Shown piece by piece: positions 1 through 64,000 of a stretch of DNA of 64,000 nucleotides. A model generated the notes under the pieces. It made no database searches and was not told the origin of the DNA. It saw only the letters and a program-made list of their open reading frames with translations. Source of the DNA: Terramyces sp. JEL0728 (lineage: Eukaryota > Chytridiomycota > Chytridiomycetes > Rhizophydiales > Terramycetaceae); the NCBI GenBank assembly GCA_027603945.1, contig JADIIU010000020.1, positions 1 to 64,000 on the forward strand, written 5' to 3'. How positions within the stretch are numbered: the first letter of the stretch is position 1; each line of letters starts with the position of its first letter. A program made the translations under genes and the position numbers.

Positions 1-46
1 TAGAATGGTAGGGTTCAATAAATTCTGCCTTCTAAATTCACACACA

Positions 47-1281
47 ATGTTTCTCCGTAGAGTTTCTCATCAGCTCAAACTTTTTTCAACAAAAACAAAA
101 ATAATGGCAGACCACAAGCTTTGTATGATTCCAGGACCAGTAGAATTCGATCCACTTGTCCTTAACGCAATGTCAACTCCAGCAACCTCGCACGTCGATC
201 CATCATTTATCAATTCATTTGGAAATGCAATTAGATTGGTAAAACAAGTATGGCTAGCACCTTCTGGACAGCCATTTATTTTATCCGGATCTGGAACATT
301 GACTTGGGATATGACAGCAGCTAACTTGGTAGAACCAGGTGAAAATGTGCTCGTAGTCAACACTGGTATTTTTGGAGATTGGTTTGCTGAATGTCTCTCT
401 GTTTATGGCGGGAAAGTTGACCAGGTTAAAGCACCATTCGGAGATGTAATTGTTTATTTAATTAGATTCCTACTTTGGCACAAATTGAAACTGCATTAAG
501 ATCAAAGCAATACAAACTCGTCACTGTTACCCATGTTGATACTTCATCTGGGGTATTGAATGACATCAAGTCGATTGCTGAATTAGTTCATCGCGTGTCT
601 CCAAATACTTTGATTGCTCTTGATGGTGTATGTTCAGTTGCTGCTGAAGAAATCAGAATGGATGAGTGGGGGCTTGATGTAGTCATGACTGCTTCACAAA
701 AGGCTATTGGTGTGCCACCAGGGTTGGCTTTATTGGTAGTAAGTCAGCGTGCATTGCAAGTAGCAGCAAACAGAAAAGCTGCGCCAAGCACTTACTTTGC
801 ATCATTCAAGAAATGGTTGCCAATTATGCAAAAGTATGAAGCCGGACAGCCTTCTTACTTTGCTACTCCTCCAGTTCAATTGATTCTTGCTTTGGAAATA
901 TCATTGAACCAATTCATGAAGGAAGGAATGGAAAAAAGGTTTGAAAAGCATATTGAAGCAAGCAAGAAATTCAAACAGGCAGTTTCTAAATTCGGCCTTA
1001 AGATTGTAACAAACTTTCTAATTTAGGTGCCTGTCAATGGTAAAGTAGCAGCCAATACTTTGACTGCAATCTACTACCCAGATGGAGTGCAAGGGGGCGA
1101 AATTCTTAAATCCTTATCCCAAGCTGGAGTTGTAGTTGCTGGTGGTCTTCATCCTGAACACAATACCAAATATTTCAGAGTTGGACACATGAACATTTCT
1201 GCTGTTGAACCTGAACATGGACACATTGACAAAGTCATTTCCGCACTTGAAAATTGCCTCAAGTGTCTTGGGAAATTGTAA
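47..1281 (+). CDS. AGXT: Alanine-glyoxylate / serine-pyruvate aminotransferase
   Basis: PLP-dependent class V aminotransferase that converts glyoxylate plus alanine (or serine) to glycine plus pyruvate. Three exons are joined by introns at 446-465 (20 nt) and 1006-1026 (21 nt), giving 397 aa, normal for the family. The segment MTASQKAIGVPPG carries the PLP-binding lysine, and the N-terminal IPGPVEF and SGSGTLTWD motifs are typical. From the ATG at 47 the N-terminus (MFLRRVSHQLKLFSTK) looks like a mitochondrial presequence. An internal ATG at 104 (MADHKL) would remove it, and the C-terminus ends GKL, a possible weak PTS1. An in-frame ATG at 5 adds 14 residues and lies at the window edge. The stop codon lies inside AATAAA, 6 bp from the convergent gene's stop. 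Identity is firm; dual targeting is inferred. Confidence 0.93.
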
Positions 1282-1287
1282 TAAACT

Positions 1288-1959
1288 TTATTCTTTCCAG
1301 TCTTTAAATATTCCCTTGTAAAACATATAGAGAGTGTCCTTTCTTGCCAAGTCGATATATCCTTGTAAATCCATATTTACATCAATAGTCGGCGGTAGTG
1401 CCTGACAATTTTCGTATTCTCTTACTTTATCTTGGTACTCTTTTGTCCAATCTTTGCTATACTTTAACCAAAACGTTTCCGTTGTCCGTACCAGGTACAA
1501 CAACATACTTGTCATCCTTTTTTCAACTATAGTGTCAAAATGTTGAAACTCTTTGATTGGATATCCGTCTAGTGAATCACTTGCTGGTTCAATCATTCTT
1601 GTTTCTTTTCCAGCTTCATCGGGTAAAGCAATATTAGATTCTTTCCTGTCCAGTAAAGCACGGTACTGATCGTGGTCCAATTTCGTTACATTAACCATCA
1701 TCCGTTCCAAAATCAAGTGCAACACCAAATCATCTTTTTCCAAACACAATTTAAACCTTGTTGGTCTGTCAACAGTAATATTGAACCAGAATTCTTTGTT
1801 TGGCATGTAAAACACCATGCTGTTTCTCAAAGAAAAGCCATTGTTCATCAAGGCCATGCTCTTGTCGTGTTCATTTAAAGCAAGCGTGAGAGTTTGGTTT
1901 ATCCATTCATTCGAGTCAAGGAACATGATTTTCTGGATTTGGAAATAATGAATTGACAT
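1288..1959 (-). CDS. Hypothetical protein, 223 aa
   Basis: Single open exon with ordinary soluble composition: no signal peptide, no membrane segment, mixed charged and aromatic residues. Central and C-terminal stretches look helical, around YLVRTTETFWLKYSKDW and near the end IDLARKDTLYMFYKGIFK. I recognise no family or catalytic motif. The first Met is used here; a second Met at codon 12 (MFLDSNEW) would also be acceptable. It converges on AGXT with only 6 bp between the stop codons. Its own stop, GAATAAAG, also lies inside an AATAAA hexamer, as for many genes in this window, which supports it being a real transcript end. No function can be assigned. Confidence 0.7.
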   Translation of the reverse strand: MSIHYFQIQKIMFLDSNEWINQTLTLALNEHDKSMALMNNGFSLRNSMVFYMPNKEFWFNITVDRPTRFKLCLEKDDLVLHLILERMMVNVTKLDHDQYRALLDRKESNIALPDEAGKETRMIEPASDSLDGYPIKEFQHFDTIVEKRMTSMLLYLVRTTETFWLKYSKDWTKEYQDKVREYENCQALPPTIDVNMDLQGYIDLARKDTLYMFYKGIFKDWKE

Positions 1960-2038
1960 GTGTTGGCCAGTGTAGTGTCTCTATTTATACTAATTAAGGC
2001 TGGTCGATTTAAGAATTTAAAGTTATATTGATAAGAAC

Positions 2039-3345: not shown

Positions 3346-3469
3346 TTTTGAGATTTAGCTGGACTTGAAAATTTCAAAGTTAAAATACAAGCAAAATCAA
3401 CGGTATAAGCCGAGCTGTTTCAACAGACGTTGGATCTATGTCAGGTGTTTCGAAAAACTTTTTCAGTTC

Positions 3470-4146: not shown

Positions 4147-7100
4147 TTATTTTCCTTCTGCTATATAGGTACCATCCCACTCGACGAGAGGCGGTTGAAT
4201 GATATAATGTTTACACCTGGATAAGAGTACCTTTGATGGGCCGTCGTCCGAAAGCTGTATAGCTGATTCAAATAATTCTTGAGCTTGAATAAACATCCTA
4301 CGTTTGTAGAACGCTAATCCGCCTTGGAATAGCCTCAAGGTTTCTGCTAGATCTGGACTCAGTGGATCTCCTTTTCTCCCCAGTAATTCGTACATTTTCA
4401 CAGGCAATTTTTTGCCAGTTACCACAACTGATTCAATTTCTCTGGTAAGGTATGCGTCTCCCGTTTCGTCTAATGTATGCTGTGTGATAAGTATTGTTAT
4501 TCCATAGTACTTTGTCAAGCCTTCTGTCCTCGATGCCAGATTCACCGCATCGCCGATACAGCTGAATTCCATACGTTTCAGTGAACCAATGTTCCCAGAT
4601 AATACCTACAATTACCAATGGTTACCATTCCTGTATTTACACCAATTCCCATTTTAATAGTTTTCTTTCCTTGCACCTCACGGTCTCTATTTGTGATAAC
4701 CAGTGCATCTCTCATCTTGAGCGCAGTATTGCATGCATGAATTGCGTCTTCGTCTTTTGCAAATGGAACACCAAACACGGCCATAACGGCGTCGCCTGAT
4801 ATTAATAAAAAATACCGATAAATTTGTCAAGGATACCCTGTTCTTCAGTAATTGCGTTAACAGCATCTGTAAAATGGTGGTTCAGTAATTCTACAACTTC
4901 CGGTGGATCCATTCCTTCCGACAAAGTTGTGAACGAGCGGATATCGCTGAATAGAATCGATACTTTCTTTCTCTTTCCGCCGAGTTGCCCGCTGCCTTCC
5001 TCCATCACCTGCTTAGCCAATGCAGGCGACATGTATCTGCCCAGGGTCATTACAGCTCTCTTTTCTGATGAAATGTCATCCAAAACGACAACCACGCCAT
5101 GACTTCCAATAAGAGGCATCACCTGATAGTTGACAATAACACTGGAATTCATTCCTTTGATTTCGAAATCTGTAACGTAAATACTTTCCCAGTTTTTGTA
5201 TACTTCGCGGATATCCTTGAGCAAGTCTTTGTTCTGCTCTTCACCAATCCATTTTTCCACTGGGTTTTCTTTCATGAACTGCTCATCTACGCCCAGCGCA
5301 TTCATTAGCCAAGGTCTATTTATGGTGTTCTGGATTATGCAGAAATTACCAGTTTCATTGAATCAGACAAGGTCATTACACAAGAGGTGATGGAACTCAA
5401 AATACTTTGCAGGTAGATTCTCATATCTTCGGTCTTTTTGAACAACTGAGACTTTTCAATAGCAACAGCGGCTGGATGTTAGCAAAAATAACCTTGCGAT
5501 GAAAATGAACTTAGGATCATTTCATCCTCTGCCGAATATACACCGCTTCTCTTATTGATCATTTGGGTCACGCCAATACATTCACTATGAATATTCTTGA
5601 TTGGCATACACAGAATTGTTCTCGTGATATATCCAGTTTGTTTGTCAACTTCTGGGTTGAATCTGGAATCTTTGTATGCATCTTGAATATTGATTGGAAC
5701 TGGATTAATGCGAATTTACCTCCGCTCGTAAATACGGCGCCAGCTATACCAGCGTTCGATGGAATTCTAATTTCTTGCACCGAATCTCTGCCTTGGATAA
5801 TTGCCCGCAGTTGTTTCCTTTCGGGGTCGTGCAAGAATAATGTACATCTATCCGAACTCAGTAATTCTTTGGCGGAATCCATAATCACTTTAATCAACTT
5901 GTCCAAATCCAAGATAGAAGCTAGCGATCTGGTAGTTTCCAAAAGCACCGTAACTTTATTTTGCGTCGTGTGCATTGATTCGTATATCCTTGCATTACCC
6001 ATCATTGCACCTGCTGTATTACTAAGGGATTTGAATAAATACTCGTCTTCCTTTTCAAATTTCCTCAGAGCAAATTCAGGACCTACATTAGCTTTTTCTT
6101 ACCCGGCCCCATCTTATTTACTCCTACGAAAACACCAGTGATGTTATCTCCGGAGGAGATTGGCACGCATATTAAACCGTGCGGATCGGCATCAAGATCT
6201 GGACAATCCACCTCTGGACTGAATTGTGGATACGATGTTGGGTCTTTAACATTTATCATGCATTTGTTTGCAATACAGTAGCCAACAAATCCCTGGTTCA
6301 TTGGGAACCTTGGGACTTGTTGACTATCTGCGAAATTTCCATACGGCAGAATTTCTTTAGTTTCGTCGTCCACACGGTAGAGTATAATTTGTTCCACATG
6401 CAACATTGACGTAGCTTCTTGCAAAATCTTCTCAACATCGCTGTAAATATTTGTATCCAAAGAAATGCCGCTATTGATATGCAGCAGTCTATCAACTTTT
6501 TCAAAAAAGCTCAGCAAATACTGAAAGTTTTCTTTCCTTTCCAAAATAGACATCCCCTCCAGTTTTTCGAGGAAATCTGACGCATAATATTTACTGAGAA
6601 ATCCAGAGGTCAAACTGGTATGCGTGAGAGGTAGGGTATGGAAGGCGTTGCCAATTCCACCGTCTGACTTTGTTAAATCTTCAGTTGACGGCTCTTCAAT
6701 TACTATTTGCGCAGCCATTTCTGATGTTTGGGATTGCTTTCTACTTAGTGCGCTTTGAATGTAATGAGCAGATGCTTTCCTAGCACTTGGCATTTGGTAT
6801 TTGGAATTTAGCAATGCTATGATTAATTTTGCCTACCTCTAGACGACAACTCTGAAGCTTTGAGCAAATGTGACAGACCGCCTAAAGATAGAAATTCGTC
6901 ATTTGCAGGAGCTAACATCAATACGAATTACGATATTTCGAAAGCACGGCGTTTAACAATATACAAGCGGAGCCTTGTATCTCTGGTAAATTAGTAGTTC
7001 TTGGTAACAGCTCCATGAATACTGACAGCAATCCTGCTTCATACAGAACAAACGCCATGGAAGGTTCTAGTATTATGGCTAATTACCTGTTTCCATTACC

Positions 7101-7828
7101 GACAATCTATTTAATTCCGATATTGCTTCGGACAGCTTGTACATGGTTGCATCGATATCAGTAAGAATCGCCAACTGGCGTTCTACGGCTTCCAGATCTG
7201 GTTCTGGCAACCAAGAGTCGACAATCACTACCCCAGTTGCATTGCTATCTCTGATTGTGTTTTGAACAGGTAACGATGCTCTTCTTACTTCAAAAACAAA
7301 AGAATTATCCTCAGTTTTAGAGCTTTTCGGTATATTTATATCATTCAGCATATCTGTTATTGTAATAGATGATTTCGTGGTTGCTTGCTTTATTTGGTCT
7401 TGGCGCAATTTTGTATAGAATCCAGAAGTGTGTGCTCCTGTAGGCAGTCCAGAAGAATGAGTGGTATAAATATTCGCGCTAGCCGGACGGGGTTTCGGTT
7501 TAGAACTTTCGGTACTATTGACAGTGGTTATCAAAGGATTGTTTGGTGCTGTTGTATCTAATATTATTGATGTGCTTGCTGGTTTGTCTTCTTTTTTTGA
7601 ATATGCCTGGTGTTTCTGCTCGTTTTTCTCTCTTGAAGTTACATTTGCTTTATATCGATTGATCGCTGCTCCTGACGGTCTTGGCATTGCATCTCTTGTT
7701 TTATCATCACTTAATCTGACAGAAGATCTGGGGCGTGAGCTGTCACTACTCTCGTGTACGCTTCCACTACTTCTCCGTCTAGTAGCTGAAGGGGATTCAC
7801 CCAATGTAACGACATGTAATCCCGACAT
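4147..7828 (-). CDS. Class III adenylyl cyclase with GAF-GAF-PAS sensory region
   Basis: Ten exons, 1166 aa. Introns: 7067-7086, 6912-6931, 6817-6836, 6083-6102, 5700-5719, 5472-5492, 5330-5349, 4796-4815 and 4596-4615. The last appears to end in TG rather than AG. Order: Ser/Arg-rich N-terminus with RPASA (1-240), a helical segment (about 250-310), GAF-A (about 395-545), GAF-B (about 570-770, ending [12 protein letters not shown]), a PAS-like segment (about 790-890) and the cyclase (about 905-1090). Metal aspartates are in FSDIRSF and [10 protein letters not shown]. The Lys of DKFIG and Ser of FSCIGD fit the Lys/Thr-type pair of bacterial-style adenylyl cyclases, so cAMP is the likely product. 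The order resembles cyanobacterial CyaB1, not the fungal LRR cyclase. The GAF domains may bind cyclic nucleotides (inferred). Confidence 0.88.
4596..4615 (-). other. 20-nt intron with apparent GT-TG ends
   Basis: In the cyclase gene, removing exactly 20 nt (a GTAATT donor, 3' end ATCTG) restores the conserved segment [14 protein letters not shown] and keeps the whole 1166-codon frame. No AG is available at a length that preserves the frame: the only AG inside would give a 10-nt intron and the wrong frame. A shifted cut giving the same protein is possible but would lose the canonical donor. Confidence 0.6.
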
Positions 7829-13507: not shown

Positions 13508-14724
13508 ATGTTGTCCTCTAGCGAAATGTCAAAAAATGAATTGAAGAGATCAAAGTCACCATCTCGGGATTCTAAAAAGAAGCAGAAAACTGGAACAGAG
13601 AAAGAGCAATTTATTACTTCCTTTAAAGAAATCCGTAGAGTATTAGAGCAAGATCTGGATGCCTGCAATTTGCCTGCAAATGGAAAAGAGTGGTTCAGGA
13701 AGATGCTTGATGAAACTGTTCAGGGAGGAAAGATGAACAGAGGACTGACTGTTGCTTCTGCGTTACAGTCGTTATTGAAGAGATCTTTGACTGAAAAGGA
13801 ATTATATGAAGCACACGTATTGGGGTGGTGTATTGAAATGGTTATTCTTCAATAATTGTAGTTGCAAGCATTCTTTTTGATTGCGGACGATATCATGGAT
13901 TCATCAATTACCAGAAGAGGACAGCCATGCTGGTACAGAAGAGTATTTTATATTAACATAGGAAACCGTCGGCATGATTGCTATCAATGATAGTTTTATT
14001 ATTGAATCTGCGATTTACAAGCTTCTAAAGAGATATTTCAAATCTCATCCCGCCTATGTCGAATTATTGGAACTGTTTCATGAAACCACGTTCCAGACTG
14101 AATTGGGCCAATTAATGGACTTGATTACCGCTCCAGAAGGCGATGTTGATCTTTCAAGATTTTCAATTGAAAAACATGCGTACATTGTAGAGTACAAAAC
14201 TGCCTATTATTCCTTCTATCTCCCGATTGCGCTTGCGATGAGATACGCCGGGATTACTGAAGAAACAGCCTATGACCAAGCCAAAAAGGTTTTATTGGCA
14301 CTTGGCGAATATTTCCAAGTCCAGGCAAGCGTTCTTAATGATAGGATGATTACCTAGACTGCTATGGATTGCCAGAAGTAATAGGTAAAATTGGCACGGA
14401 TATTGAAGATAACAAATGCGGCTGGTTGATTGTGCAAGCGTTATCTTTGGCAAATGAAGAACAACGCGAAATCTTGGATGTATTTTAAGCTAATTTAGAA
14501 AAACTATGGCCAAAAAGATCATGAAAAGGTAGCCCTCGTAAAGAAAGTCTACAAAGATCTCGATATCGAAGGTGTCTACAACAAATACGAAGAAGACAGC
14601 TACACCAGGATATCCACATTGATTTCAGAAATCGACGATTCCCTCATTCCTCAAGACATGTTTACAAAGTTCATGAACAGGTAGGCTACTTTATTTATTA
14701 AGAATTTACAAGAGAACCGTTTAA
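13508..14724 (+). CDS. FPS1: Farnesyl diphosphate synthase
   Basis: Isoprenoid synthase making farnesyl diphosphate from IPP and DMAPP/GPP for sterols, ubiquinone and prenylation. Six exons, 371 aa. Introns: 13841-13861, 13943-13961, 14325-14344, 14480-14498 and 14681-14702. The first Asp-rich motif is in [20 protein letters not shown], the second in [12 protein letters not shown], and the C-terminus NRIYKRTV is typical of the family. The third intron begins GC and ends AG; removing it is what rebuilds the second Asp-rich motif. The N-terminus has about 30 extra basic residues ([11 protein letters not shown]) absent from most homologues. The start could also be the next Met, 6 codons in. The stop overlaps TAATAAA, 8 bp from the convergent gene's stop. 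Confidence 0.95.
14325..14344 (+). other. 20-nt GC-AG intron
   Basis: GCAAGCGTTCTTAATGATAG interrupts the farnesyl diphosphate synthase gene exactly between FQVQ and DDYLDCYG. The donor is GC, the branch/acceptor block TTAATGATAG is standard, and the length is typical for this genome. Confidence 0.85.
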
Positions 14725-14732
14725 TAAAAAGA

Positions 14733-24051: not shown

Positions 24052-27000
24052 TTATTTACTGGTGCCAGATGCGTCGCTTTCGGTGATTACAGTGGTAAAG
24101 ATTTCATCCAGCGTTGTTTGACTAACACCCCAGTTTTCAATTCCTGCATCGTTGGCATGTAGAACGAGGAGGTCAAATACATTTGCCAGCTGAATTGCAT
24201 CTGGTTTGAATCCATATCTTCGACTTTGCTCAAACTGATGTATGCACACTGAGCCTTCAGGCAAAATTGACATGACAAACTGATGTGCTTTATCCATCTT
24301 GTGTGAAGTTATGGACAGTTTGTAGCCACAGCCGTAGTTTTGTTTTAGTGTGGAAGGGGTTCCAAGGCATTTCAAATGTCCTTTGGCCATAATACCAACT
24401 TTTTGACAGCAGACTTCCGCTTCTTCCATTGAGTGAGTGGTCTATAATTACTCTGCGATTACCAATAAAATAGCCCGATTACCTCTTGCAATTGCAATAG
24501 TATCCCAGACAGATCGGCGAACATCTGGATCTAGACCAGTGGTTGGCTCGTCCAGGAATACCACTTTGGGATCGGAAACAAGTGATATTGCAATACTGAC
24601 TCTGCGCTTTTCACCGCCAGACAGCCCTTTCACTAGTCGTTTGGCCAAGTGTAGTAGTTCGACTAGTTCCAAAGCAGCCCTAACTGCAGAATTTTCCAGT
24701 TCCGGACTGATTCCTTTCAAACGAGCATAAAAGAACAAGTGCTCTTCGATAGAGAGGTCGTTCCATAAAATATCAAACTATAATTAATAGATAATTACTT
24801 GGGGACAAACACCAATTGATCTAAAGGCCAACTGTGGATTTTCATAGATATCGAATCCAGCAATTGTTGCTTCTCCCGCAGTTGGAGGGTAAATTCCAGT
24901 CAAAACCGAAATGAGGGTAGTTTTCCCAGCACCATTTGGTCCTAAAAGGCCAAAAACTTCTCCATTTTCAACATAAAACGATACACCTTTTACTGCTTCC
25001 TTTTTTTGGAAGCTATTTTCATACGTTTTCTTCATTCCAAGCATAACCAGAGGAGTATCAGAAGGGTATTTCCGCTCTTTAATTGCGTTTCTTTCTGCTT
25101 TAACATGGTCGTCTTCGTCTTCTGCTACTTCTTCTGATGGTTCGAATTTTTGGAAAACCTACGGTTAGTATTGCTAGTCTACCTTTTCTTCAACGATTCC
25201 ACCTTTTTTCATATAGTTTTGAATATCGGTAATTGGATAATTCCAAGGTCTGCATCTCCCAAAGGTATCGGGGATTACTTGAGTCAAGTAAATTGAGAGA
25301 ATGATCACTACAACGATTTCTACAGACATCAAAATAAACCCGAAAAACACTTGGTCTCCAGGAATCACCATATCCAATGTGTACGACGCTAAAACATTGG
25401 AGGTCGCATGTCGATTTAGTAGTCCAAGAACTCTGTAAAATGCAAAAGGCGGCCAGATCATTACTACCGTCGGGAAAGTTGCCGGGTCGGGGAATACCTG
25501 ATCAAGTATGTACGAAGTGACAACCCCACAAATCACAATCAAAAAGACACCAACATTGGCAACAGATGAAGATTTGAATAACGAGTTGAAGAAGAAAGCC
25601 ATACTAACTTGGACAAACCCCCAGAGTAAGATGGCAATAATTAAAACAGAAAATGCAGTCTCGGTAAAGAGTTCCAATCTTGTAAGATATCCAGTCACAT
25701 AAAACACAAACATAGATACGACATAGCTGATGTAGAAAGTAATGAAAGAGCTGATGTAGTAGCCACTGGCATCTCCTAATCCATTCTAAAGTTAATTTTT
25801 GGCTACCATTCTTAGCATTGCCAAAATTCTTGCTTCTTTATCTTTGACCAATGTTAGTGTAAAGATTGGCAAGAGGAAGGAAATCCCCAAAGGATACAAA
25901 ATCCTGCCAATCACAGATCCAAATGGGAAAAATACCTGTCCTGGCTCCAAATATGGGAAGGCTCGTGTTCCTTGTGTTATCACAGTCTGGGCGAGTTTTG
26001 GATCACTCATTCTTAAGATCCCATTTGAAAGTTGCGATTGCTGCAACAGCTTTCGCAGCCCGGCTGTAGGAAACCCTTGAATGTTGGAGAGTACACCGTT
26101 TTCCCCGATTTGTAACGAATATGAATAATTTTTCTTTGCGTGGTCAATCTGATCGAAATAAATCCCGACATAGGGAGTGTCATCAAGAGCGCCATGTAGA
26201 TTAGCTAATGTCTGTGCCGCTGCAATATCTTGTGAAAGTGCTTGGACAGCAGAACTGACTGGCTGTATCTTTGATAGTTTGTCTATTGAGGATTGAATAG
26301 CGGAATAAAGGTAATCGGACAGTGATTGTTGATCAGTGAAATTTTGCAAAAAGAACGGCACCTGTTGATAGCCCGATACTGAGAGCGAGCTTGACAATGT
26401 ATACCACCTAGGTTCTATTGTGTCCAAGATACCATTAGCGCTTTGGCCGCTCTTAAAGTAGGGAATCCCAGCCGGGATTTGCGATGCGTTTGAAACTGGA
26501 GACAGTTTTGGAACTGTTCCAATTAGTGAAGACGTGACAGAAGTAGATGAACCAACAATAGCCCATGGCCGCATTTGGTATGACGAAAATGTTCGAGCCA
26601 GACTACCGTAAATATCCACTTACCTGAGAGCTTGTTTGGCATATGGATCTACCAAATTTGTGCCACCATTAGTTGGCGCCAAAACATCTAGCCAACCTGA
26701 CAATATTTCAGAAGTATATGCGCTAGGTTAGTGGAGATCTTACGAGTCCTTAGTTGAGTAAGTATGAAGCGGGCTTGGTGAATTTTCATAAGCACTTGTG
26801 TTTGAGAGAATATAGTCTTCGCCAAACCATTGCACACCTAATTTTTAAGTCGTATTTACATGGCAAACTTCCAGCTACTGACAGTGCAGTCAGTTCAGAC
26901 AGTGGATCTCTTCCAGTAACATCAACCAAGGACAATCTACTTAGATAATTCACGGCTCTGACAGGGAGCGTTGCGTATGGAATATCGCTTGCATTAAACC

Positions 27001-27707
27001 TGGTAATTCCAATCCCAGATATGTTGTAAATTGGCCAGTTTTGTTGATTTGTCGAATCAGCCATTGAACAGTATTGCACTTGATATGTTGGGGACCCATC
27101 AGAGTACTCTGCGATAATGATCTTTAGCAGGAAGGCAAGAATAATCATAATAAACGGACACAGTGTAATACAACAGATGTTTTCAAACCACTGGCGTTTT
27201 TGATAGCTAACTGCACGTCTGCTGAATGCTCTAAAATTAGCACTGGGATAACCTGAATTGAAACGGTTTCCTCAATTCGATATTCTTGACTTCTCCAGTT
27301 TTTTTAGTTTTATATCTGATCGAATCTGTCGGTCCTAGAGTTCCTGGCGTTCCCGGTCTTGCGGAAGGAGTCAGGACAGTATTTACAACGGTGATTGGAA
27401 ATGCCTCGAATCCAGGCGTTTCTGTTCGTTTTGGTCTATTTTTTGAAGGGTAAGACAAGGTGTCGTACAGATATGGTGCAGAGTTTGGGTTCGCACCTCT
27501 GCTTAAAGATACTTCTCCCCTTTCCAAATCAAGGTGAGAATTTAATTTTCTTGTTGGCATTGAATTGTTTCTGAACAGGGCATCATCATCCGTCTTCAAC
27601 CTTGGATATATCTTTACAATTTCCGATTGCGAATCCCTTTTCCCATAGTCTACTGATTGTCCCTCAGGTTCAGTAATCTCTTCCTCTTTGAGAGGATTAT
27701 CTTCCAT
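24052..27707 (-). CDS. ABCA-type half-size ABC transporter
   Basis: 1160 aa from nine exons. Introns: 27231-27252, 26838-26859, 26723-26743, 26603-26623, 25786-25806, 25159-25182, 24778-24798 and 24442-24462. The 24-nt intron is the longest I resolved. Order: cytosolic N-terminus (about 155 residues), first TM helix ([15 protein letters not shown]), a large luminal loop (about 190-500), five or six further TM helices (about 520-770), then one nucleotide-binding domain. The NBD shows Walker [10 protein letters not shown], signature LSGGEKRR, Walker B VVFLDEP and H-loop TTHSM. One TM domain plus one NBD indicates a half-transporter that probably dimerises; A-type proteins usually move lipids. 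Substrate unknown. Confidence 0.9.
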
Positions 27708-29683: not shown

Positions 29684-32321
29684 ATGTTTTGGAAGTTTGG
29701 ATTTCACAATGCCTCAGCAATTGAAGGAATAATAGAAAAGGAAGGAGCGACACTTGATGATGTGATGCGCGAAGAAGAGCTATTGCAGGAAGTGAAAGCA
29801 CAGAACGCCAAACTGCTGGAATTGTACCCTTCACTAACGTAGTTTATGTCGACCGCAGAATATCAAAACCTTGCTGGAATACGTTACTCAAAATGACAGT
29901 CTAGACGAACAGAAAAAGTTCAAGTATTCCGCTCTTGATGTAGGTATCCGTTTGTAGCAAGTGAAATTTTCGGTTGCGAAATAATGACACTAATAGATGC
30001 GCTATTTCAGAACAGGGACATTTTGACAGATTTCTGGAACTTTCTCGCTACAGCAGACAATTTAAACTCATTAAACGCAACTTATTTTGCAAAAATCAAC
30101 ACCGTCTTACTGACAAAAAAGACTGCTGCAATGGTAGAGTTTTTAAAGGAAACTCCAGCAGCGTACAAAAACTTGGTGAAGCATCTTAGCTGTAATCCAA
30201 TTGCGGATTTGATTTTGAATATCATTAAAGTGGAAGATTTAAATGAAGGGCAAGGGGTATTGAAGGTTCAAAATCCTAATTATAGTGGCTTAAAGAGCAA
30301 GGATTAATTGAGAATTTGGTTTCTTTATTGGATCCTAAATTAGAGCCAGAGGTATTTATTGCTTAATTCAGTGCCATTCTATTGCTTCACAAACTTTGAT
30401 TGATATTGTTACGCTTACGTATCAACCCGTCAATGCATTTGATCCGAATGCCGCACCAGAATTACCTAGACCAAGCGGCGGAAACAATAATCTGCTCATA
30501 ATGGAAATGAAAACGTAATTAATTTTCAACCTAGTGAAAAAATATTAACCCAACTAATCGACTATATGCTTGACAGAACCAGTGCCCACTGCACTACCAG
30601 TTTAATTAACGGCATCAGTGTTATTATGGAACTTATAAGACGCTATTGCAGGTAGGTTTCCTTTGACGCAAGTGAAATTGAGTCGGCAGAAGTTCAACAC
30701 CACGAATTTAATGTTCGTAATCAAAACGGAAACCCAAACACACCATACCCTGGAATTGATAAAATTATCGCTCTGTCCATTGATCTGAATGATTTATTTT
30801 ACGTATTTTGCGGTAATTTGTCCAAATTTGCATATGCACTGGATAATCCGTTAAGTGTGGTAATAGGCTTGTTTATATAGAATGAATCAGTTGAAACAAC
30901 TGTTGGAAAACAAATTCCACTTGGATCTGAAAGGTTGAAGATTTGTGAGCTGTTTGCCGAATTTATCCACTTGCAATATTTATTTGCCTCCAGTCCATTG
31001 TTTGATATGATGGTTTGTCCTAGCGAAGATGAAAGCACGGCGCCAGAAATCACAGTTGTTGATGGTCTTATCATGCTGACTGAAACATTTATCCGAGAAA
31101 AGATTATGGAGAGATGCATTGTAATTGTTGGTAACGTTAGGGACTATTCTTTGCATTCCCGTGGAACAACTTTATTCACTCTGTCGTGTATGACATGATT
31201 GCCAAAATCTTTAATACTTATTCCTTTACTTCAAACCTTGCAGGTCAATATGGTTATCAAAAATCTCCAAGCGAACTGGCTTTGAATGACATTAACGAAG
31301 AGCCAACCTACTCGCAATTGAAAATGAAAGTCGTAAGACAAACAGTAAAGAAACTAATTGCATCCATATTCCAAAGTGGCACTTTGATTCAACAGATCAC
31401 AAATGCTCAACGACTTAACGATTACCATGTGTAAGCTCTTCAATAATACTAGTGAACAACCCAAAGGATTCAGACTAGGATATATGGGCCACCTGACTTA
31501 TATTTCAGAAGAAACATGTAAATTGTTTGAAAAGTGTGCCGAGGAATTGGACGACGAACTACATAGTAAATCAATAGTAACAGCAGATTATATTCATTCT
31601 GAAGAATGGCACGAGTATGTCAACCACACATTCCGCCAAACACAAGAAACCGATCGCCAAACCTTGGGAGGCACAAAACCTGAACAAGTTGGCGGTGTTT
31701 CCGCATTTGGAGGCGGTGGTTCAGCCGTTGATGATGATTTCAAATCTAAACCAGTAGTCTTGGCAAAAACCGTAGTTCATGATATTGATGATGATACTGC
31801 GGAAAAGAATATGCACTCTGATTCCATTGATGCATATAATGATCAATTTACAAGGTATCTATGCCAACAGATGGTCAAGGATTTGCCTGATAGATTTTTG
31901 GGTGCAGATAGCTCTGACGACGAAGAAGAAAAGAAATGGATAGGGTATTTATAACTGATATTAGTGATGTTGAAGACAAAGAAGTAGAGTTTGATATTAA
32001 TGAGGCAATATCTCATGACGCATTATTTGCTGCCCGTAATTTCCACAGGGACGGAGATGATGAAACAATGAGTGATGATTTGGAATCCGTACAGCAAGAA
32101 ATGGAAGATTTCCCATCAAGTGCTGTTGCAGACGTACTTTTTCCTAACCATAGTCGCAAAACGATCCTTTGCGAAATCTTCCCAAACTAGTTGAAGGAAT
32201 AGAAACACTGTCACCAACATCCACTTCAGGAACTGCTTCTACATGGGAAGCCGATTTTTCAAACATGAAAATTACATCTGATACACCTATTCCTGAAAAT
32301 CCTTTAGATGATATAAAGTAA
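29684..32321 (+). CDS. SAP185: SAPS-domain protein, PP2A/Sit4-type phosphatase regulatory subunit
   Basis: Regulatory subunit of PP6/Sit4 phosphatases. 804 aa from 12 exons, the highest intron count in the window. Introns: 29824-29842, 29924-29943, 30266-30285, 30352-30371, 30515-30534, 30652-30672, 30860-30880, 31121-31140, 31431-31452, 31945-31964 and 32134-32153. Hallmarks: N-terminal MFWKFGFHNASAIEGII, RPQNIKTLLEYVTQ, KYPFVASEIFGCEI, FPWNNFIHSVVYDMI and FRLGYMGHLTYI. The C-terminus is acidic and disordered (SSDDEEEKKW), as in yeast SAPs. The symbol is given for the family; which SAP paralog is nearest cannot be told. Spliced length is an exact multiple of three. Confidence 0.93.
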
Positions 32322-42912: not shown

Positions 42913-45900
42913 ATGGACTCTCCAAACAGAGAGCTAGAGGAAGGTGAAGCCAATTCAGATAATGAAATACAAGAAGAAGGAGAAGCTAATTCAGAAGACA
43001 ATGTATTTTTATTTAACAAAAGCAATACTCTGATGAAGAGATTAAGCAATCTTCACGAAAAACTATCGACTACAGCGATGACGAGAGTGAAGACGAAGAC
43101 GAAGAAATGAACGAGGAAGATTTGAAATTCATTGCTGATGATGACGAAGAAGATAGCCAAGATGAAGACGCTTTTGAACGTCGAAAACGGAAACGAAGAG
43201 AAAAAAAAGAGCGAAAGAGGAAACGAATTGGTACTTTTCATTAATATAGAAGAAGAAGGCGACGAGCAATTGTCTGAAGATGAATTGGAATTGATTAATG
43301 AAAATATTTCTGGAAAATCTGGCAGACAGAAATTGCGTAAAAAGGCTGAAGATCGAGATGATGTTGCAAAATTATTCGACGAAGATGAAGAACAGCCAAA
43401 ACAGCAAGAGTATGACTCTGATGGTCTTGATGATTTCATTGAAGACGAAGGGAGTGATGAGGAATACGATAAACGAGAAAAAGTCAGGGAGAGAAAGATT
43501 CATAAGCAGCTGTTTACTCTTGGGCAGGAGGCTGGAATCAGTAATTCTGCATTGGAAGAAATTGAAGATTTGTTTGGAGACGGCAGTGATTATGCATATG
43601 CCCTCAATCTCGTACTTTAATTTAACTCCAGGGGACTAGTCAACTAGCCATTGATGATGATTATGAAAATGATGTTGAACTACCAGTGAAACAAAAAGAG
43701 GTTACAATCAGAGATGTTTATGAGCCGACCGAAATTGCTGAAAAGATGTTGACTGAAAAGGATGAATCGATTAGAATCAGAGATATCCCAGAAAGATTCC
43801 AGGTAACTGTTGCTAATTGTAGGGTCAAGATGGCAGCTACGTACCAGATGATGCTGAAATTGCCAGGGAAGCTGGACAAATTTCAAAAATCCTGCAAAGA
43901 GAACATAAAAATGTTGACGAAAAAAGTCTCAGCACATCTGTCACGCAAGTTTTGAGATTCCTGCGCCGAAACAAGTTTGACGTTCCGTTCATTTACACCC
44001 ACAGAAAAGATTATTTTAACGGAGTCTTGGAATTGCCTGATATCTGGAAAATTGTCGATTTGGATGAGAAATTTATCCAAGTAGAAAAGAGAAAAACTCT
44101 TCTTTTGCAGCAAATAGCACAAATTGCAACTCTAGATCCATCCATTACAAACGATGAGCAGATTGCATCTTTGGTTGAAAAGATTGTCACAATGGATGAT
44201 GTGAATGATACCTTTGCCTATATTCAGCTGCTATATTCTGCACAATTGAATGAAATCCAAAAGGAAAAGAAAAAGAGGTTTAAGCCTCCAACTTGGAAGC
44301 AATTGTATGATGATTCCGTGAAATACAAAATCAATGAATTTACCAAACTATTTAATATCAACAAGGCGGATTTTGTAACTTCTGTTGCCACTCAGTCAGG
44401 TATCCATTTCCCTGAAGATCACTTTGACACACCATTAGAAGCTGCCGCAAAATTCATTTCACCAAGATTCCCCAGCGCAGAATCTGTCCTGGAAGCTGCA
44501 AAACACATGCTTGCGCAAGAAATTGCTACCCATCCCCAACTTCGAGCTGTTATCAGAATCATTTATTCCACGGATGCTGTGGTTACTGTGCATCCAACCG
44601 ATAAAGGATACAAGGAAATAGAATCTACCAGTCCCTATTACGTATCTGTATACTTATATTAGCCATTCAAATATCTGAAGGAAAAACCTGTCCCAAAATT
44701 CGTCGATGGCCAATTCCTGCAAATTATAAAAGCAGAACAGGATGGGTTGTTGACCTTGTCCATCCACGTCGATGAGGAAGAAAGTTTAGTGGCTGATATA
44801 GTGAAATTCATCTGCAATGATTATTCAAATGAGCTTGCACAGCTCTGGAACGCTGAGCGTAAAGCCATTGCGGTGTATGCAGCCAAGGAAATCCTGTTCC
44901 CACAAACCGTAAAGTGGTTGAAAGAAAAGATGGGCAACCAAGCGTGCGACTACATAGCAATGAAAACTCAAATCTCGCTTGAAAGAGTATTTGTTTACTG
45001 ATTATAGCATATCGGTGTTGCGCCATACAGAACGAGGCCAGAAGACGAAGAGGCTCCGGTTACGATGGCAATTTCCTGGGGCGATGGTGGTAAAAGTTCT
45101 ACATTCGCAGTTGTGTTAAACGAAACTGGGGAGCTACGAGAATACAAAAAGTTTGATAAACTCTCAGATCGGGATCGCCATGCAGATATAAAGGCACTGG
45201 TGGATTTTATTGACACATACAATCCCGCAGTAATTGCAATTTCTGGATTCAAACCAAATACCAAAATTCATTTATTCCCAATTATTCAGACTGAAGTACT
45301 AAACAATCTTCCAAGTCAAAAATACTTGCCCCGTGTGTTGATTGTCGAAGATGAATGTGCTCGCATATACATGAACTCAAAGTCGTGCTTGCGTGAATTT
45401 CCTGACCAGGATTATCCCCATCTAGTAAGATACTGTGTCTCCTTAGCCCGTTATGTACAGGACCCAATTAACGAATATGCTGCACTGTATAATTCCGACG
45501 AAGATATTAGGAATATTATACTTGATCCCCTTCAACATTTACTGCTGGATGATATACACATGAAAGCCATTGAAAGGGCATTTATTAATGTAGTTAATGA
45601 CTGTGGGGTTGATATCAACTTGGCTGCAAATCATACACATTTGTCCAACACCCTGCAGTTTGCCAGTGGTTTGGGACCTCGCAAAGCGCAAGCAATGATT
45701 TCTAAAATTGTTCGTTCTGGGGGTATTTTGGAGTCTAGAGGAGACTTGATCCAACTTGGAATCTGTCAAAAGGTTATCTTTGATAACTGCTCTTCCTTTA
45801 TTCGAATTAGACAGTACCATCTCAGGACTGGGAATTTCGATATTTTGGATGATACCAGAATTCATCCAAAAGATTATAAGCTGGCTAGAAAGATGGCGGC

Positions 45901-47344
45901 GGATGCATTGGATCTGGATGATTCTGTGTTGGATGACGAACACGCGCCGTCTCAACATGTGCAAGAATTAATTGAAGGAGATTCTGACCGCTTGAACCTG
46001 TTGTTGCTGGATGATTATGCTGACGAACTAGAGCGCAGGAACCATGAACCAAAGCGAGTTTGTTTGAACTTGATCAAAGACGAATTGATGTATCCATACA
46101 AGGACCATCGTCGGCCATTCAGTGGTGCTAACGATGAAGCTATTTTCAATATGCTTACGGGCGAATCTGATGTAACCCTTTATGAAGGAGCAGTGATATC
46201 TGCTGTTGTGACAAGAGTGGAGCCTCGTTTTATTAATGTACAATTGGGATCTGGTATTGAAGGAACGGTTCATATGTCAAACGTGGATGTTCCTTACGGA
46301 AGTGATGTTGACCTAACAAGAATGTTCCATGTTAATCAAGCATTGATGTGCAGTGTGAAGAACATTAATCTTGAAAGACTCGGAGTAGATTTGTCCATCA
46401 GAAGCGCTGATCTAGATGCAAACTCAAACAAATCTCGGGTTCGGGTGGATCCATTCTTTGATTTTGTTTCGCAAGAAAAGCAAATTATAAAAGAAAAGCA
46501 GAATGCAAGGAAAGTTGTTCGCGAAAAGCAGGTTAGATTTGTACAGCATCCATTCTGGCAGGCGACAGATTACAAAGGCGCTCAGGCATACTTGGCCAAC
46601 CGACCTAGGGGTGATTTGGTCGTTCGTCCATCTGGTAAAGGAAACAATCATATATCAATTACATGGAAGGTAGACGAAGGGGTTTACCAACATATAGGTA
46701 ATTCAACGCTGATGTAGATATTCTTGAATCGCAAAAGGAGAATGAATGGAGTTTAGGCAAGAGATTGACTATTGATGACATGCAATTCTTTGAAATTGAC
46801 CAGATTATTGCCGAGTATATCGAACCCATGACAAGGAAAATCTCAATGTTGATCGACCATCCAAAATACCAGAACAAAACTCTTTCTGAAATGTGTAAGT
46901 GTATTGTTAATCCAAGATACATTCGTCGGAGAGCAAGTTCATCAATTAAAGAGATCTGCTTATGGGTTTATTATTTCTCCTGACAAACCAGGTTCGTTCC
47001 TGCTTGTTTTCCGTCACCCTTCAAACAGCCCTAGGCAAGATATAATCACTGTTCGTCCTGGTTGCTATGAATTTAGGAACAAGAAATTTACAGATGTTGA
47101 ACAATTGCTAATGCACTTTAAACAGTCTGAAGCAGCAAAAGCTACCCAAGCAAACACCCAGGCTCAAAAAAGTCATTCTGAGCGTCGCCCAGATTCACGA
47201 AACGATCCAAGACAACAAAGAAGACCAGACCGGTCTGATAGAGATAAATCAGACAACCGTCGTCCGCCTGAACGACCAAGAGATAGCCGAGGTCCACCTC
47301 GATCTGGATATCAGCAGAATGGATACAGTGGCAGAAATTTCTAA
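42913..47344 (+). CDS. SPT6: Transcription elongation factor and histone chaperone SPT6
   Basis: 1422 aa (yeast 1451). Nine exons; introns 43003-43022, 43231-43249, 43612-43631, 43803-43822, 44642-44662, 44987-45007, 46698-46717 and 46895-46916. Spt6 travels with RNA polymerase II and reassembles nucleosomes. Order: acidic N-terminus with basic patches (about 1-240), helical Tex-like core (RRNKFDVPFIYTHRKDYF, then QISLERHIGVAPYRTR), YqgF-like domain (VTMAISWGDGGK), helix-hairpin-helix (ASGLGPRKAQAMI), S1 domain (VISAVVTRVEPRFINVQLG) and tandem SH2 (HISITWKVDEGVYQHI, then KRSAYGFIISPDKPGSFLL). The C-terminal tail is Arg/Asp/Pro-rich. Spliced length is exact. The stop overlaps TAATAAA, 21 bp from PEX2. 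Confidence 0.95.
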
Positions 47345-55265: not shown

Positions 55266-55367
55266 TATGTTTGAATAAAATTGTCTACCTATTGTGATCC
55301 CAATTTGGGTTTGTGTAACATCCGGTCTGTCTTCGGAATACATCGGAAGAAAATTTTTAACTTTTGA

Positions 55368-58140: not shown

Positions 58141-58259
58141 AAGAATTTATTCACAAAATTACTTGAATAGCCCAACATAGACCTTGAATTCATAAGACCC
58201 TATCCCTACCTCCTCGATTTCACTGGCAATACTAGTGCCGAATCTAATGTCAGCAGTAA

Positions 58260-59276: not shown

Positions 59277-59367
59277 TTGAAAAAATTGAAAGGAATGTCA
59301 ACGCTGAAAAAACTGAAAAATCAGACAATGAGATCCGATTTTGTGTGTATTCTCTTTATTCATTTGC

Positions 59368-60519: not shown

Positions 60520-61160
60520 TTCTAATTAGGAAACGCTTGGAATTGGACGCTATTTATACATTGATTTCCACCGTTGTCGCCAATAAACCATGCGTGGGGA
60601 AACTCGAGATCCATATTCGAAAACGCAATCAGTACCAAATCGGGAAGTGGTTCATCGAAAATCCGTACCTTGCTGGATGGAAACGATATCTGATCCTTCG
60701 ATTGGGGTGGTTATGCTAGTTGCAGGACGACGGACGGTCCTTTTGAATAATCTCAGCTTGGTTTGAACCATATTTTCACTTTTGGAGATTTACCGCGTGC
60801 TTGTCCCGACAGATCGGGTCTGATAAAGAACCTTTCCACACTCGAGTGATTCCAAACATTCAAAGCTAGCGTGATATCTCGGAAGTGAAATATGTACATC
60901 TCCCCAGTCATTACTAATTCGGTCTCTGTCTGGTTGTCCTGAATTCATGATGATAATCAGTGCCCTCACCAAGCATGCGCTGTGAACGTACGCTTTGATG
61001 TCCCATTTATCGGAATTCAAGGTGCATGTTGGAGATTTGGCACACTGAAGGATGGGCACCTACAACTTGGCCAGGTGGATTAAAATATTCATTAATGCTC
61101 AGCATAAGCCGCATGGTTGTTCATTTATCCAGATTGAGTAATGCAAACTTATCTATGTGT
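60520..61160. promoter_or_regulatory. Intergenic region between pepsin-like genes 2 and 3
   Basis: 641 bp; holds the TATA box of gene 2 and the 3' flank of gene 3. A minus-strand ORF at 60790-61059 has no gene-like features. No RNA gene or repeat is seen. Confidence 0.4.
60551..60558 (-). promoter_or_regulatory. TATA box of pepsin-like gene 2
   Basis: TATAAATA on the minus strand, 32-39 bp before the ATG at 60519, matching the box of copy 1. Confidence 0.55.
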
Positions 61161-62344
61161 TTATTGCGGATGGACTGCTTTGGCAAACCCAACTTGGTTA
61201 TTGGCTTTGTCGTAGATAGTGTAGTAAGCCCTAGAAAGGATATCACCAAAGATATTTGGGGTCAAGAATCCTGCACCTTGGGTAACTCCGGAAATACAAG
61301 TACCATCGCCATTGTCTAAAACATAGTACTTTGATGGAATGGAAAGAGTGAATGATGGGAATTTAAAGTCGAGGGAAGGGCCAGTTTTTGCGATTCCACA
61401 GTCGATATAATATGCACCGAGGGTGGAGTTGTATGGTTTTGCACCAATACCAGTGTTGATGGCATTTGCTTGGCTGGTTCCCAAGATAATCAAAGTTGTA
61501 CCACTAGGTTAGGAAACTATTACGTATCAGAGATTGCGTTATTTGCGAGGAATCCGCCCAAGCTTCCAGATTTTGATCCGGCAGAATAAGTGACCTTGCT
61601 GATATCGAATTGCCAGTATGTTTGAGAGTTGACGGCAACAGTGTTGATTGCTCCAGTGTACTTGGAGGTATCAACTCCGCCAAAAGTAACCTCGCCGTTA
61701 TCTCCATTAGCTGCGTCGCTCAAGTAGAACGCAAACTTGTTGTTGGCACCTGTGAATCCAAGCGCATCAAACCAGTTGGCAGAAGTTCCAACTTGCTGGG
61801 AGATGGTAGAGATGCCATTATATCCTAGACCCAATAAACCGTCAGCTACTCCCTCTAATCCCTTTTCAGCTGTTGATACACCGAATGGAAGGTTGGAAGC
61901 GAGAGCTGGTCCAACAGCAATTGGCCCAGTGTAGATATCGCCACTGCAAGAGCCAGATCCATACTGGATAGAGTAAGTTTTTCCGGTTGATTTCAAAGTG
62001 CTGTCAGCAGTGTTGACTTTTGGGCCATTGCAAGATCCATCTGAAGCAGTACACTTGGCACCTCGAACCCAAACATCACTGGAACCAGTATCCAAATCTA
62101 CAGTCAAGATTTGGCCATTTCCTACAGTGGCATTTGCTCTGTAGACGAAATTGTATTCGTTTTCTAATGGGGCAGATCCACCGGATGATGCAAATCTTTG
62201 AATTGCACTATTTGCAGAAGCTGCGTGAAGTTCTTGTTTTGGAACGTTAGAGAGGTGGAACGGAGCACCCTTGTGGATTGGAACAGTAAATGGAACCGCG
62301 GAAGCAGTGACGGATACAGCGAAAACAGATGCAGCAAACAACAT
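61161..62344 (-). CDS. Secreted pepsin-like aspartic protease 3
   Basis: 387 aa from two exons, with a 20-nt intron at 61504-61523. Signal peptide MLFAASVFAVSVTASAVP, propeptide with SNVPKQELHAAS, catalytic DTGSSDVWV and DTGTTLII. The intron lies inside the second DTG motif (between the D-T codons and G), a functionally critical site, and is absent from copies 1 and 2. Shared blocks with copy 2: CTASDGSCNGPKVNTADSTL and GDNGEVTFGGVDTSKYTG. TATA box just upstream. The intron was either gained here or lost in the others. Confidence 0.93.
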
Positions 62345-62368: not shown

Positions 62369-62376
62369 AATTTATA
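62369..62376 (-). promoter_or_regulatory. TATA box of pepsin-like gene 3
   Basis: TATAAATT on the minus strand, about 25-32 bp before the ATG at 62344. Confidence 0.5.
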
Positions 62377-62657
62377 AAAATCCTTATCAGTGCATCAGTA
62401 ACAGACTCGCATGCTCATGTCCGGTGCCCAATCACGGTATAACCACTAGAAATCTTTTAGTACGAGATTGAACTTGGATGAAGGCTCCTACTTTCATATC
62501 AAACATGGTGGATAATTGAGCCGGTTTACTTCTCCCAACTATACTATAGGTGTTTGGCTGAATCAATATTGTTCATTGGTGTACCAGACTGCCGTGACGG
62601 TCATTTAATCGCGCACGCAAGAAACAGCAAAAATGAACTACAAATTATTGAATTTAT

Positions 62658-63263
62658 TCAAACCAACAAGGTCAAGAATATTAAAGAGTACGACACGAAT
62701 GTGCGTCCAGCATCGCTAGTAACAGTTGGAGAAACAGCGCTGGTTGTTCCCGCGGTAGAAGTGCTATTCGAGGACGGATTAGCAGCTAAAACGCCAGTGC
62801 AATAACTTAAAGAGGTACCTACAGCTGAAGAACAAAGTTTGACTAAATCTGCACAATCTGTCATTGGCATTTGGGAGCAAATGGAAGAAAAAGTACCCAT
62901 CAAATCACAGGAAGAGGATGTTGCATCTGGACAGCTCTTGCACGCAGTCATAGAGGGCATTTCCTTGCACAAAGAGGTAACATCCGACTGCACCTGTTTG
63001 GTAGACGGAACAGCAGAAACAGCAGTTGTGATTACTGTTGGGATCGACTGACATGCAGCTCCCTTTGGGAAATCATTGGTGCACATTGCATACAAGAATG
63101 CAGGAAATAGCTTTGTGCAAATTTGACCACTGGATTGAGTGCTTGAACAGGCTTGGGTGTAGATTTGACAATACACCGAAGACGGGTTTGTGGTACATAG
63201 TGAGCTGACAGTTGAATTGCTGGTTGACTGAGCTGCTGCAATTGAAATTAGCAATGAAATCAT
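62658..63263 (-). CDS. Secreted Cys/Met-rich protein, probable GPI anchor
   Basis: 201 aa, one exon. Signal peptide MISLLISIAAAQS, then a Cys-rich region with about 16 cysteines arranged in repeating modules. Two modules carry a Met-Cys pattern: CKEMPSMTACKSC and CSQMPMTDCADLVKLC. Before the C-terminus there is a Ser/Thr/Pro stretch and then a hydrophobic tail (TFVSYSLIFLTLLV) fitting GPI attachment. The MPxM...C pattern resembles copper-binding ectodomains of some fungal Ctr-linked proteins, so extracellular copper binding is possible but unproven. A plus-strand ORF across it is antisense and rejected. Confidence 0.7.
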   Translation of the reverse strand: MISLLISIAAAQSTSNSTVSSLCTTNPSSVYCQIYTQACSSTQSSGQICTKLFPAFLYAMCTNDFPKGAACQSIPTVITTAVSAVPSTKQVQSDVTSLCKEMPSMTACKSCPDATSSSCDLMGTFSSICSQMPMTDCADLVKLCSSAVGTSLSYCTGVLAANPSSNSTSTAGTTSAVSPTVTSDAGRTFVSYSLIFLTLLV

Positions 63264-63344
63264 TTCGCAAAAAAGGCGCAGACAAAATGTTTTAAATCGT
63301 TTTCACGTGACTTTGAAACAAGAAAACAAACTCTGAAAGGTAAT

Positions 63345-64000
63345 CTATATATTTTGTACAGGGCAGTGTGCAAGATCCAGCAACTTCAGATTCTTGATTC
63401 CGGTGATGTCAATCAAGTTCAAACACAATCTTAAACTAACAAATTCCAGCTTCATATCAAATAAATCCACACGGTGCAATGACATGCAGTTCATTGCTTC
63501 TATTTTTCTAATGTGTAATCCCCTAATAAAATCAAAATTTGTGATTTGAGTGTGGGAAATAGACAGGCTGAGGAGCTTTGTATTTGAAATACTTGTGAAA
63601 TCATTGACGGAAGTACAGCTGTCCATTTCCAAGTATTCCAAATTACACGGTAGCTGTAATTGCGCCAATCCTCCACAGTCATTAATTTTTAAAATCGACA
63701 GTTTTTCCAACCAAAGGAGATCTAATTCTGTTACAGCAGTGCCAGATAAATCCAGATTTGTTAAATTGCTTGAATTAGGAACACTAGCTATATTTGAAAG
63801 TGAATAGTTCCCACAACAGTCTAGTATCCGCAATTCCGTAGCGGATTTTAAATCCAAAGCTCTCAATCCAATACATTTACGTAAATTCAAATGGTTTATG
63901 CTGGATGTGCATTTGAATGAATATAGGTTTTCGCACCTTTCCATTTCCAGTATTTTCAACCCTTTTGGCAGCGATTTCACACCTCTAATAAACGATCCAG
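63345..64000 (-). CDS. Leucine-rich repeat protein, truncated at the window edge
   Basis: Minus-strand frame open from the window end to a stop at 63345; the N-terminus lies beyond 64000. At least nine LRRs of about 19-22 residues are visible, with cysteine at the end of many repeats (LKILEMERCENL, LNLRKCIGLRALDLKSA, LDLSGTAVTELDL, LSISHTQITNFDF, LLDLAHCP). The repeat type is like the cysteine-containing or SDS22-like LRRs of intracellular proteins. No membrane segment or signal peptide is visible in this part. Partner and function unknown. Confidence 0.75.
   Translation of the reverse strand, partial: GSFIRGVKSLPKGLKILEMERCENLYSFKCTSSINHLNLRKCIGLRALDLKSATELRILDCCGNYSLSNIASVPNSSNLTNLDLSGTAVTELDLLWLEKLSILKINDCGGLAQLQLPCNLEYLEMDSCTSVNDFTSISNTKLLSLSISHTQITNFDFIRGLHIRKIEAMNCMSLHRVDLFDMKLEFVSLRLCLNLIDITGIKNLKLLDLAHCPVQNI

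Follow-up and report, generated by a model that had tools for sequence, protein, structure and literature searches.

Nearly all introns of the chytrid fungus Terramyces sp. JEL0728 appear to be spliceosomal introns of about 20 nucleotides

We analyzed introns in a 64,000-nucleotide stretch of DNA (the window, positions 1 to 64,000 of contig JADIIU010000020.1) from the nuclear genome of Terramyces sp. JEL0728 and in further contigs of the same assembly, and we conclude, with a probability of roughly 0.93, that nearly all Terramyces introns are ordinary U2-type spliceosomal introns that have shrunk genome-wide to near the smallest size that a spliceosome is known to use. The introns have GT-AG ends and a branch motif, and the assembly contains a U2 small nuclear RNA (snRNA), as for U2-type introns; their lengths form a narrow class below about 25 nucleotides (nt), and no longer class was found at 25–400 nt. 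The source of the DNA, taken for a ‘fungus-like flagellate’ when only the sequence was read, is instead a true chytrid (Chytridiomycota, Rhizophydiales, Terramycetaceae), and its SPT6 is identical to the Terramyces sp. JEL0728 protein. Terramyces is a culturable soil saprotroph, and JEL0728 should, from its number, be a strain in a culture collection.

The most direct evidence comes from three genes in which we placed introns using the proteins of relatives. We used a protein-to-DNA aligner that accepts introns with any ends and a length of at least 9 nt, where GT and AG are worth 0.05 each and act as a tie-break. In FPPS, all six homologs yield introns of 21, 19, 20, 19, and 22 nt, barring shifts of 1–2 nt and one merged gap. 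Intron 3 is GC-AG, and intron 5 was not seen by our ab initio gene finder. The best named match to FPPS is from Boothiomyces sp. JEL0866 (83%). In SPT6, comparison with the deposited protein gives eight introns of 20, 19, 20, 20, 21, 21, 20, and 22 nt. When five proteins from other genera are aligned, five of these introns keep exactly the same ends with one or more of them, and the other three fall within the acidic N-terminus, which is divergent. Once spliced, SPT6 equals the deposited protein at 100% over 1422 amino acids. In the ABCA transporter gene, the placement of seven of eight introns is exact with two or more of the four homologs from other genera, and the eighth, of 24 nt, sits in a variable linker. 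The deposited Terramyces sp. JEL0728 proteins already embody short introns in both genes compared (SPT6 and ABCA). One deposited ABCA intron of 31 nt (26838–26868) is likely wrong, to judge from the alignments, in which 22 nt is backed by all four homologs from other genera. The introns, in window coordinates, are as follows.

13841..13861, plus strand, FPPS intron 1, 21 nt: exact in five of six homologs; the sixth (P0003) has a 45-nt gap with the same acceptor
13943..13961, plus strand, FPPS intron 2, 19 nt: exact in five of six homologs, the sixth shifted by 2 nt
14325..14344, plus strand, FPPS intron 3, 20 nt, GC-AG: six of six homologs; called as 14 nt by the GT-AG-only finder
14480..14498, plus strand, FPPS intron 4, 19 nt: six of six homologs with the register off by 1–2 nt; GT-AG register from the finder
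14681..14702, plus strand, FPPS intron 5, 22 nt: six of six homologs; missed by the ab initio model
42913..47344, plus strand, SPT6 gene, nine exons, 1422 amino acids: 100% identity to P0121 of Terramyces sp. JEL0728
43003..43022, plus strand, SPT6 intron 1, 20 nt: deposited P0121; ends imprecise with other genera
43231..43249, plus strand, SPT6 intron 2, 19 nt: P0121; ends imprecise with other genera
43612..43631, plus strand, SPT6 intron 3, 20 nt: P0121; ends imprecise with other genera
43803..43822, plus strand, SPT6 intron 4, 20 nt: P0121; exact in one of five proteins from other genera (P0122)
44642..44662, plus strand, SPT6 intron 5, 21 nt: P0121; exact in four of five (P0122, P0124, P0125, P0126)
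44987..45007, plus strand, SPT6 intron 6, 21 nt: P0121; exact in one of five (P0122), and 21 nt with a 2-nt shift in three more
46698..46717, plus strand, SPT6 intron 7, 20 nt: P0121; exact in two of five (P0123, P0124)
46895..46916, plus strand, SPT6 intron 8, 22 nt: P0121; exact in three of five (P0122–P0124), and 22 nt with a 4-nt shift in the other two
24442..24462, minus strand, ABCA intron, 21 nt: deposited Terramyces P0225 and four of four homologs from other genera (P0227–P0230)
24778..24798, minus strand, ABCA intron, 21 nt: P0225 and four of four
25159..25182, minus strand, ABCA intron, 24 nt: exact in P0225 and Boothiomyces P0226; an overlapping gap of 27–75 nt in the four homologs from other genera
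25786..25806, minus strand, ABCA intron, 21 nt: P0225 and, exactly, three of four
26603..26623, minus strand, ABCA intron, 21 nt: P0225 and four of four
26723..26743, minus strand, ABCA intron, 21 nt: P0225 and four of four
26838..26859, minus strand, ABCA intron, 22 nt: four of four; 31 nt in the deposited model
27231..27252, minus strand, ABCA intron, 22 nt: P0225 and, exactly, two of four

To extend the length measurement, we ran a purpose-written ab initio gene finder (Viterbi, coding frames on both strands, phase-specific fourth-order composition) on a 264-kilobase (kb) sample consisting of the window and twenty 10-kb stretches (L004–L023), one from each of 20 other contigs. These 21 contigs belong to an assembly of 231 contigs and 15.0 megabases (Mb). 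In the flat-prior runs, introns of 12–400 nt had an equal cost at every length. With a flat prior, no motif, and GT-AG introns only, we found a sharp peak at 19–21 nt that held 76 of 175 introns, whereas the same run with each of 15 decoy dinucleotide pairs placed only 0–8 of its 136–172 calls at those lengths. The other 99 GT-AG calls were scattered in length as decoy calls are (45 of them at 101–400 nt) and look like the same noise. When learned motifs were combined with the flat prior, 132 of 166 introns were 18–24 nt long (two of 18 nt, 20 of 19 nt, 74 of 20 nt, 24 of 21 nt, 10 of 22 nt, and one each of 23 and 24 nt), and the remainder comprised three below 18 nt, nine of 25–100 nt, and 22 of 101–400 nt. 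When the length prior was learned as well as the motifs, lengths of 17–24 nt (mean 20.2) accounted for 235 of 244 introns, as compared to 8–30 introns of 17–24 nt for each of 10 decoy pairs under these settings; the nine outliers measured 14, 45, 68, 123, 197, 215, 218, 363, and 371 nt. A length prior shifted upward by 5 to 40 nt left 9–25 introns in the shifted peak and lowered the score by about 1,100 nats; a shift of –4 nt, with which the prior still overlaps the peak, gave 116 introns. Finder training, of both the coding model and the motifs, permitted GT-AG introns, which gives them some advantage over decoys; this bias is not common to the homology test, in which the aligner needs no GT-AG. 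Lengths divisible by three after splicing are imposed by the finder and hence lend no independent support.

In the window, the final model called 70 introns, 68 of which are 19–24 nt, and both outliers are model errors. By homology, the 14-nt call is the 20-nt GC-AG intron of FPPS, and the 363-nt call is an error because coding sequence for a UEV domain lies there (Pfam UEV, 66 bits, open reading frame 2856–3377, minus strand). The sequence-only reading had put about 100 introns of 19–24 nt in the window and had taken such lengths to be the norm for the nuclear genome. The length range is borne out in the window, and the 21-contig sample supports the view that ultra-short spliceosomal introns are the norm; the figure of about 100 is not reproduced as an exact number by our 70 calls, which come from a conservative model that missed the last FPPS intron (22 nt) and probably some in-frame 21-nt introns too. 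By arithmetic and not by counting, 235 introns per 264 kb correspond to approximately 13,000 introns in 15.0 Mb, and the 132 introns of the flat-prior run to approximately 7,500. Among the calls from other contigs, a 45-nt candidate (L008, 4814–4858) has the donor GTAAGT and the end CTAATCTTAG and is possibly a rare longer intron.

The short introns have a common anatomy. At the donor, A is found at +3 in 95% of introns and at +4 in 66%, and T at +6 in 67%, which gives the consensus GTA(A)NT; G at +5, which is usual in fungi, is found in 14%. The acceptor has T at –3 in 74% and a YAG consensus. With GT and AG included, the first ten positions carry 6.3 bits of information and the last twelve carry 7.7 bits. 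Branch points were predicted by scoring a YTRAY motif; of 235 introns, 201 have 13 or 14 nt ahead of the predicted branch A and 213 have 5 or 6 nt behind it. These two nearly fixed spacings yield the intron lengths: 19 is 13 + 1 + 5, 20 is 13 + 1 + 6 or 14 + 1 + 5, and 21 is 14 + 1 + 6. We scanned 168,864 nt of predicted exon for intron look-alikes of 19–21 nt at a 25% score threshold, which keeps three quarters of introns by construction, and found 20, some of which are perhaps real introns. Look-alikes are not depleted in exons at this threshold; there is a small excess, the average over 60 synonymous shuffles being 10.3. We consider the motifs and their spacing to be nearly sufficient information for intron recognition. 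Known fungal introns, with GT-AG ends and a branch motif, are of the same type as those of Terramyces.

We then looked for the splicing machinery. The U2 snRNA scores 140 bits and carries GUGUAGUAUCUG. U2AF65 has a raw genome match of 251.7 bits with four in-frame stops, under the 310.3 cut-off, and the same search matches two of 14 control genomes; once its four introns of 19–20 nt are spliced out, the protein agrees with solved U2AF chains in RRM1-2, the UHM, and an N-terminal stretch (for the last, a U2AF59 chain). SF1 has both its SF1-HH and KH domains. The N-terminus of Cwc25 starts MGGGDLNLKKSWHP, with the GGG glycine plug intact. Judged by sequence, U2, U2AF65, SF1, and Cwc25 look conventional. 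The core of Isy1 is conserved; solved Isy1 chains give no alignment for the first 31–40 residues of our hand-joined model, whose first exons are uncertain. U2AF65 and SF1 are early branch-site factors that have been lost in the reduced spliceosomes of mikrocytids and microsporidia, which is not the case here, where both are present with their domains. Among the splicing factors that had been named as worth checking for reduction, U2, SF1, and U2AF65 show no reduction, and U6 was not found.

Two observations were made alongside these searches. At the start of Isy1 (L040, G000:C35, 1958–2027, minus strand) there are tandem intron-like units of 20, 20, and 21 nt that are 1 and 3 nt apart; by eye, removing all three keeps the frame open, with micro-exons of 1 and 3 nt, and a single 70-nt intron is also open. 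Identical predicted Cwc25 proteins are found on two contigs (L041, G000:C30, and L042, G000:C33), and a near-identical stretch is likewise found on two contigs (L001, C199, and L002, C111); such repeats are either duplicated segments or haplotype contigs.

Several points weigh against reading these introns as ordinary U2-type introns shrunk throughout the genome. Splicing is deduced from proteins and not from RNA, and the deposited protein models could have come from ab initio prediction too. Where sequences diverge, the aligner opens other gaps of 10–284 nt without GT-AG, which we read as coding differences. Branch points rest on a motif score and not on mapping. A few longer introns may exist, namely the 45-nt candidate on L008 and the 70-nt alternative in Isy1. 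Finally, we found no U6 snRNA in the assembly with an Rfam model, consensus BLAST, or conserved-motif patterns. None of the U6 patterns led to a gene, one of them having 19 one-mismatch matches as compared to 11 for a control pattern; two weak matches to RF00026 (U6) were rejected as near-identical copies of one longer repeated stretch, and three further pattern matches were rejected because the sequence does not continue as U6. The U6 gene may be interrupted, divergent, or lacking from the assembly. Because the assembly also yielded no match to a short 18S motif, some RNA genes, U6 included, may just be absent from it, and such a gap may be the simple explanation.

The alternative that survives best is a mixed genome, in which, beside the dominant short class, a genuine minority of ordinary introns escaped our sample or model. 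The nine of 244 calls outside 17–24 nt (45 and 68 nt among them) and an Isy1 start compatible with a 70-nt intron would fit such a class, as would introns in untranslated regions or above 400 nt, which fall outside the scope of our search of 25–400 nt within predicted genes. We nevertheless consider a mixed genome unlikely: when the short introns were cut out first, this search found 11 GT-AG introns as compared to 8–11 in eight decoys, a decoy-level count, and both outliers in the window proved to be model errors. It is far less probable that a much altered spliceosome, or something else, removes the introns. The missing U6, the low frequency of G at +5, and the unaligned N-terminus of Isy1 could be taken to favor it; however, U2, U2AF65, SF1, the Isy1 core, and Cwc25 with its plug look canonical, and the missing 18S motif suggests that the assembly may lack some RNA genes. 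Although gene finders can produce false short introns, the idea that chance GT-AG pairs were picked to mend frames, or that assembly errors were mistaken for introns, is scarcely credible when neither the set of 15 nor that of 10 decoy pairs shows the peak, alignment free of any GT-AG requirement recovers the same introns including the GC-AG one, and the introns have a common branch-like motif at fixed spacing.

If nearly all Terramyces introns are shrunken U2-type introns, they would be recognized by intron definition, in which the donor, branch motif, YAG, and their spacing stand in for a polypyrimidine tract. The 5–6 nt that follow the branch A leave no polypyrimidine tract; U2AF65 could then not occupy its textbook place alongside SF1 and U2AF35, and recognition would have to rest on the donor, branch motif, YAG, and spacing. 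U1, SF1, U2AF65, and U2AF35 would together cover more than 20 nt if bound next to one another, so the early factors would have to act in turn. The short introns may, as a conjecture, have arisen by shrinkage of older introns. More tentatively, the Terramycetaceae (Terramyces and Boothiomyces) might possess a two-ruler spliceosome (13–14 nt from donor to branch and 5–6 nt from branch to acceptor) that has kept full U2AF65 and SF1 without room for them side by side and has lost the splicing of ordinary-length introns.

We compared Terramyces with known systems as they are described in the cited papers. Stentor coeruleus, with introns of 15–16 nt, resembles Terramyces in its narrow length class, GUA donor, and near-fixed branch A (position 10 of 15, then 5 nt), and U2AF1 and U2AF2 are listed as present (PMC9505925). 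In contrast to Stentor, Terramyces is a fungus with introns of 19–22 nt, a branch A at position 14–15, and a clear YTRAY motif. Stentor Cwc25 is reported to be without the N-terminal glycine plug, for which avoidance of a steric clash was proposed (PMC9505925); Terramyces Cwc25 keeps it. Chlorarachniophyte nucleomorphs have more than 800 introns of 18–21 bp (PMC10245619), many introns in nearly the Terramyces length range, but they are relic endosymbiont nuclei and not a fungal nuclear genome with a 15-Mb assembly. The parasite Mikrocytos mackini has 224 introns of 16–17 nt, uniformly ultra-short and conserved in sequence as in Terramyces, and 17–19 spliceosomal proteins were found (PMC10245619); for Terramyces, extrapolation gives on the order of 10,000 introns, and both U2AF65 and SF1 are retained. 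Paramecium and Nyctotherus also have only ultra-short introns genome-wide, but these are longer (~25 bp) and the organisms are ciliates (PMC5014332). Within fungi, a survey of 644 genomes rated a mean of 63 bp as relatively short, and its density table includes two Chytridiomycota (PMC8476143).

Deposited Boothiomyces proteins bear on how far the trait extends. In the FPPS of Boothiomyces sp. JEL0866, precisely the exon that Terramyces introns 1 and 2 enclose is missing. The ABCA protein of B. macroporosus is without everything from intron 1 to intron 4, the gap ending at those positions and in those phases, and agrees with Terramyces in its other four introns. This exon skipping may reflect a gene finder faced with introns too short for it, which suggests that short introns are common to Terramyces and Boothiomyces, the proteins themselves not showing intron lengths in Boothiomyces. 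As a practical warning, both Boothiomyces proteins compared have deposited models that skip exons exactly between these intron positions. Among the matches listed in our literature search, which may not include the strains’ genome papers, there was no published account of such introns for Terramyces, Boothiomyces, or chytrids. Terramyces is thus the first uniformly ultra-short-intron case that we could find in Fungi, such genomes being known otherwise from Stentor, mikrocytids, and nucleomorphs; because the deposited proteins of the strain contain the short introns, the trait has been latent in public annotation. The finding places extreme intron miniaturization inside Fungi, alongside conventional early splicing factors, and raises two questions: what lower limit on intron size applies to an otherwise normal spliceosome, and what U2AF65 does where branch point and acceptor are only 5–6 nt apart.

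Short introns were also predicted in other genes of the window.

446..465, plus strand, intron 1 of a class-V aminotransferase (AGXT-like) gene, 20 nt: direct reading and finder; Pfam Aminotran_5 on the spliced protein
1006..1026, plus strand, intron 2 of the same gene, 21 nt: direct reading and finder
4147..7828, minus strand, cyclase-like gene, nine predicted introns of 20–21 nt: finder; Guanylate_cyc in one exon stretch
29984..32321, plus strand, SAPS-domain gene, nine predicted introns of 20–22 nt: finder; Pfam SAPS, E = 1e-78, in the first 523 amino acids
49024..51617, plus strand, importin-11-like gene, six predicted introns of 20–23 nt: finder; Pfam TPR_IPO11, E = 6.8e-71

The gene names first given to the window largely stand: SPT6 and ABCA are upheld by homologs and SAPS, importin-11, and COQ7 by Pfam, while DRC2 has only a match below the cut-off. 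For TSG101, the UEV domain (66 bits) agrees with the name and Vps23_core falls just under the cut-off. At 54108–62344, the window also contains three aspartic-protease-like genes that resemble one another, together with a pair of related proteins that start with MESQPLL, all named by eye.

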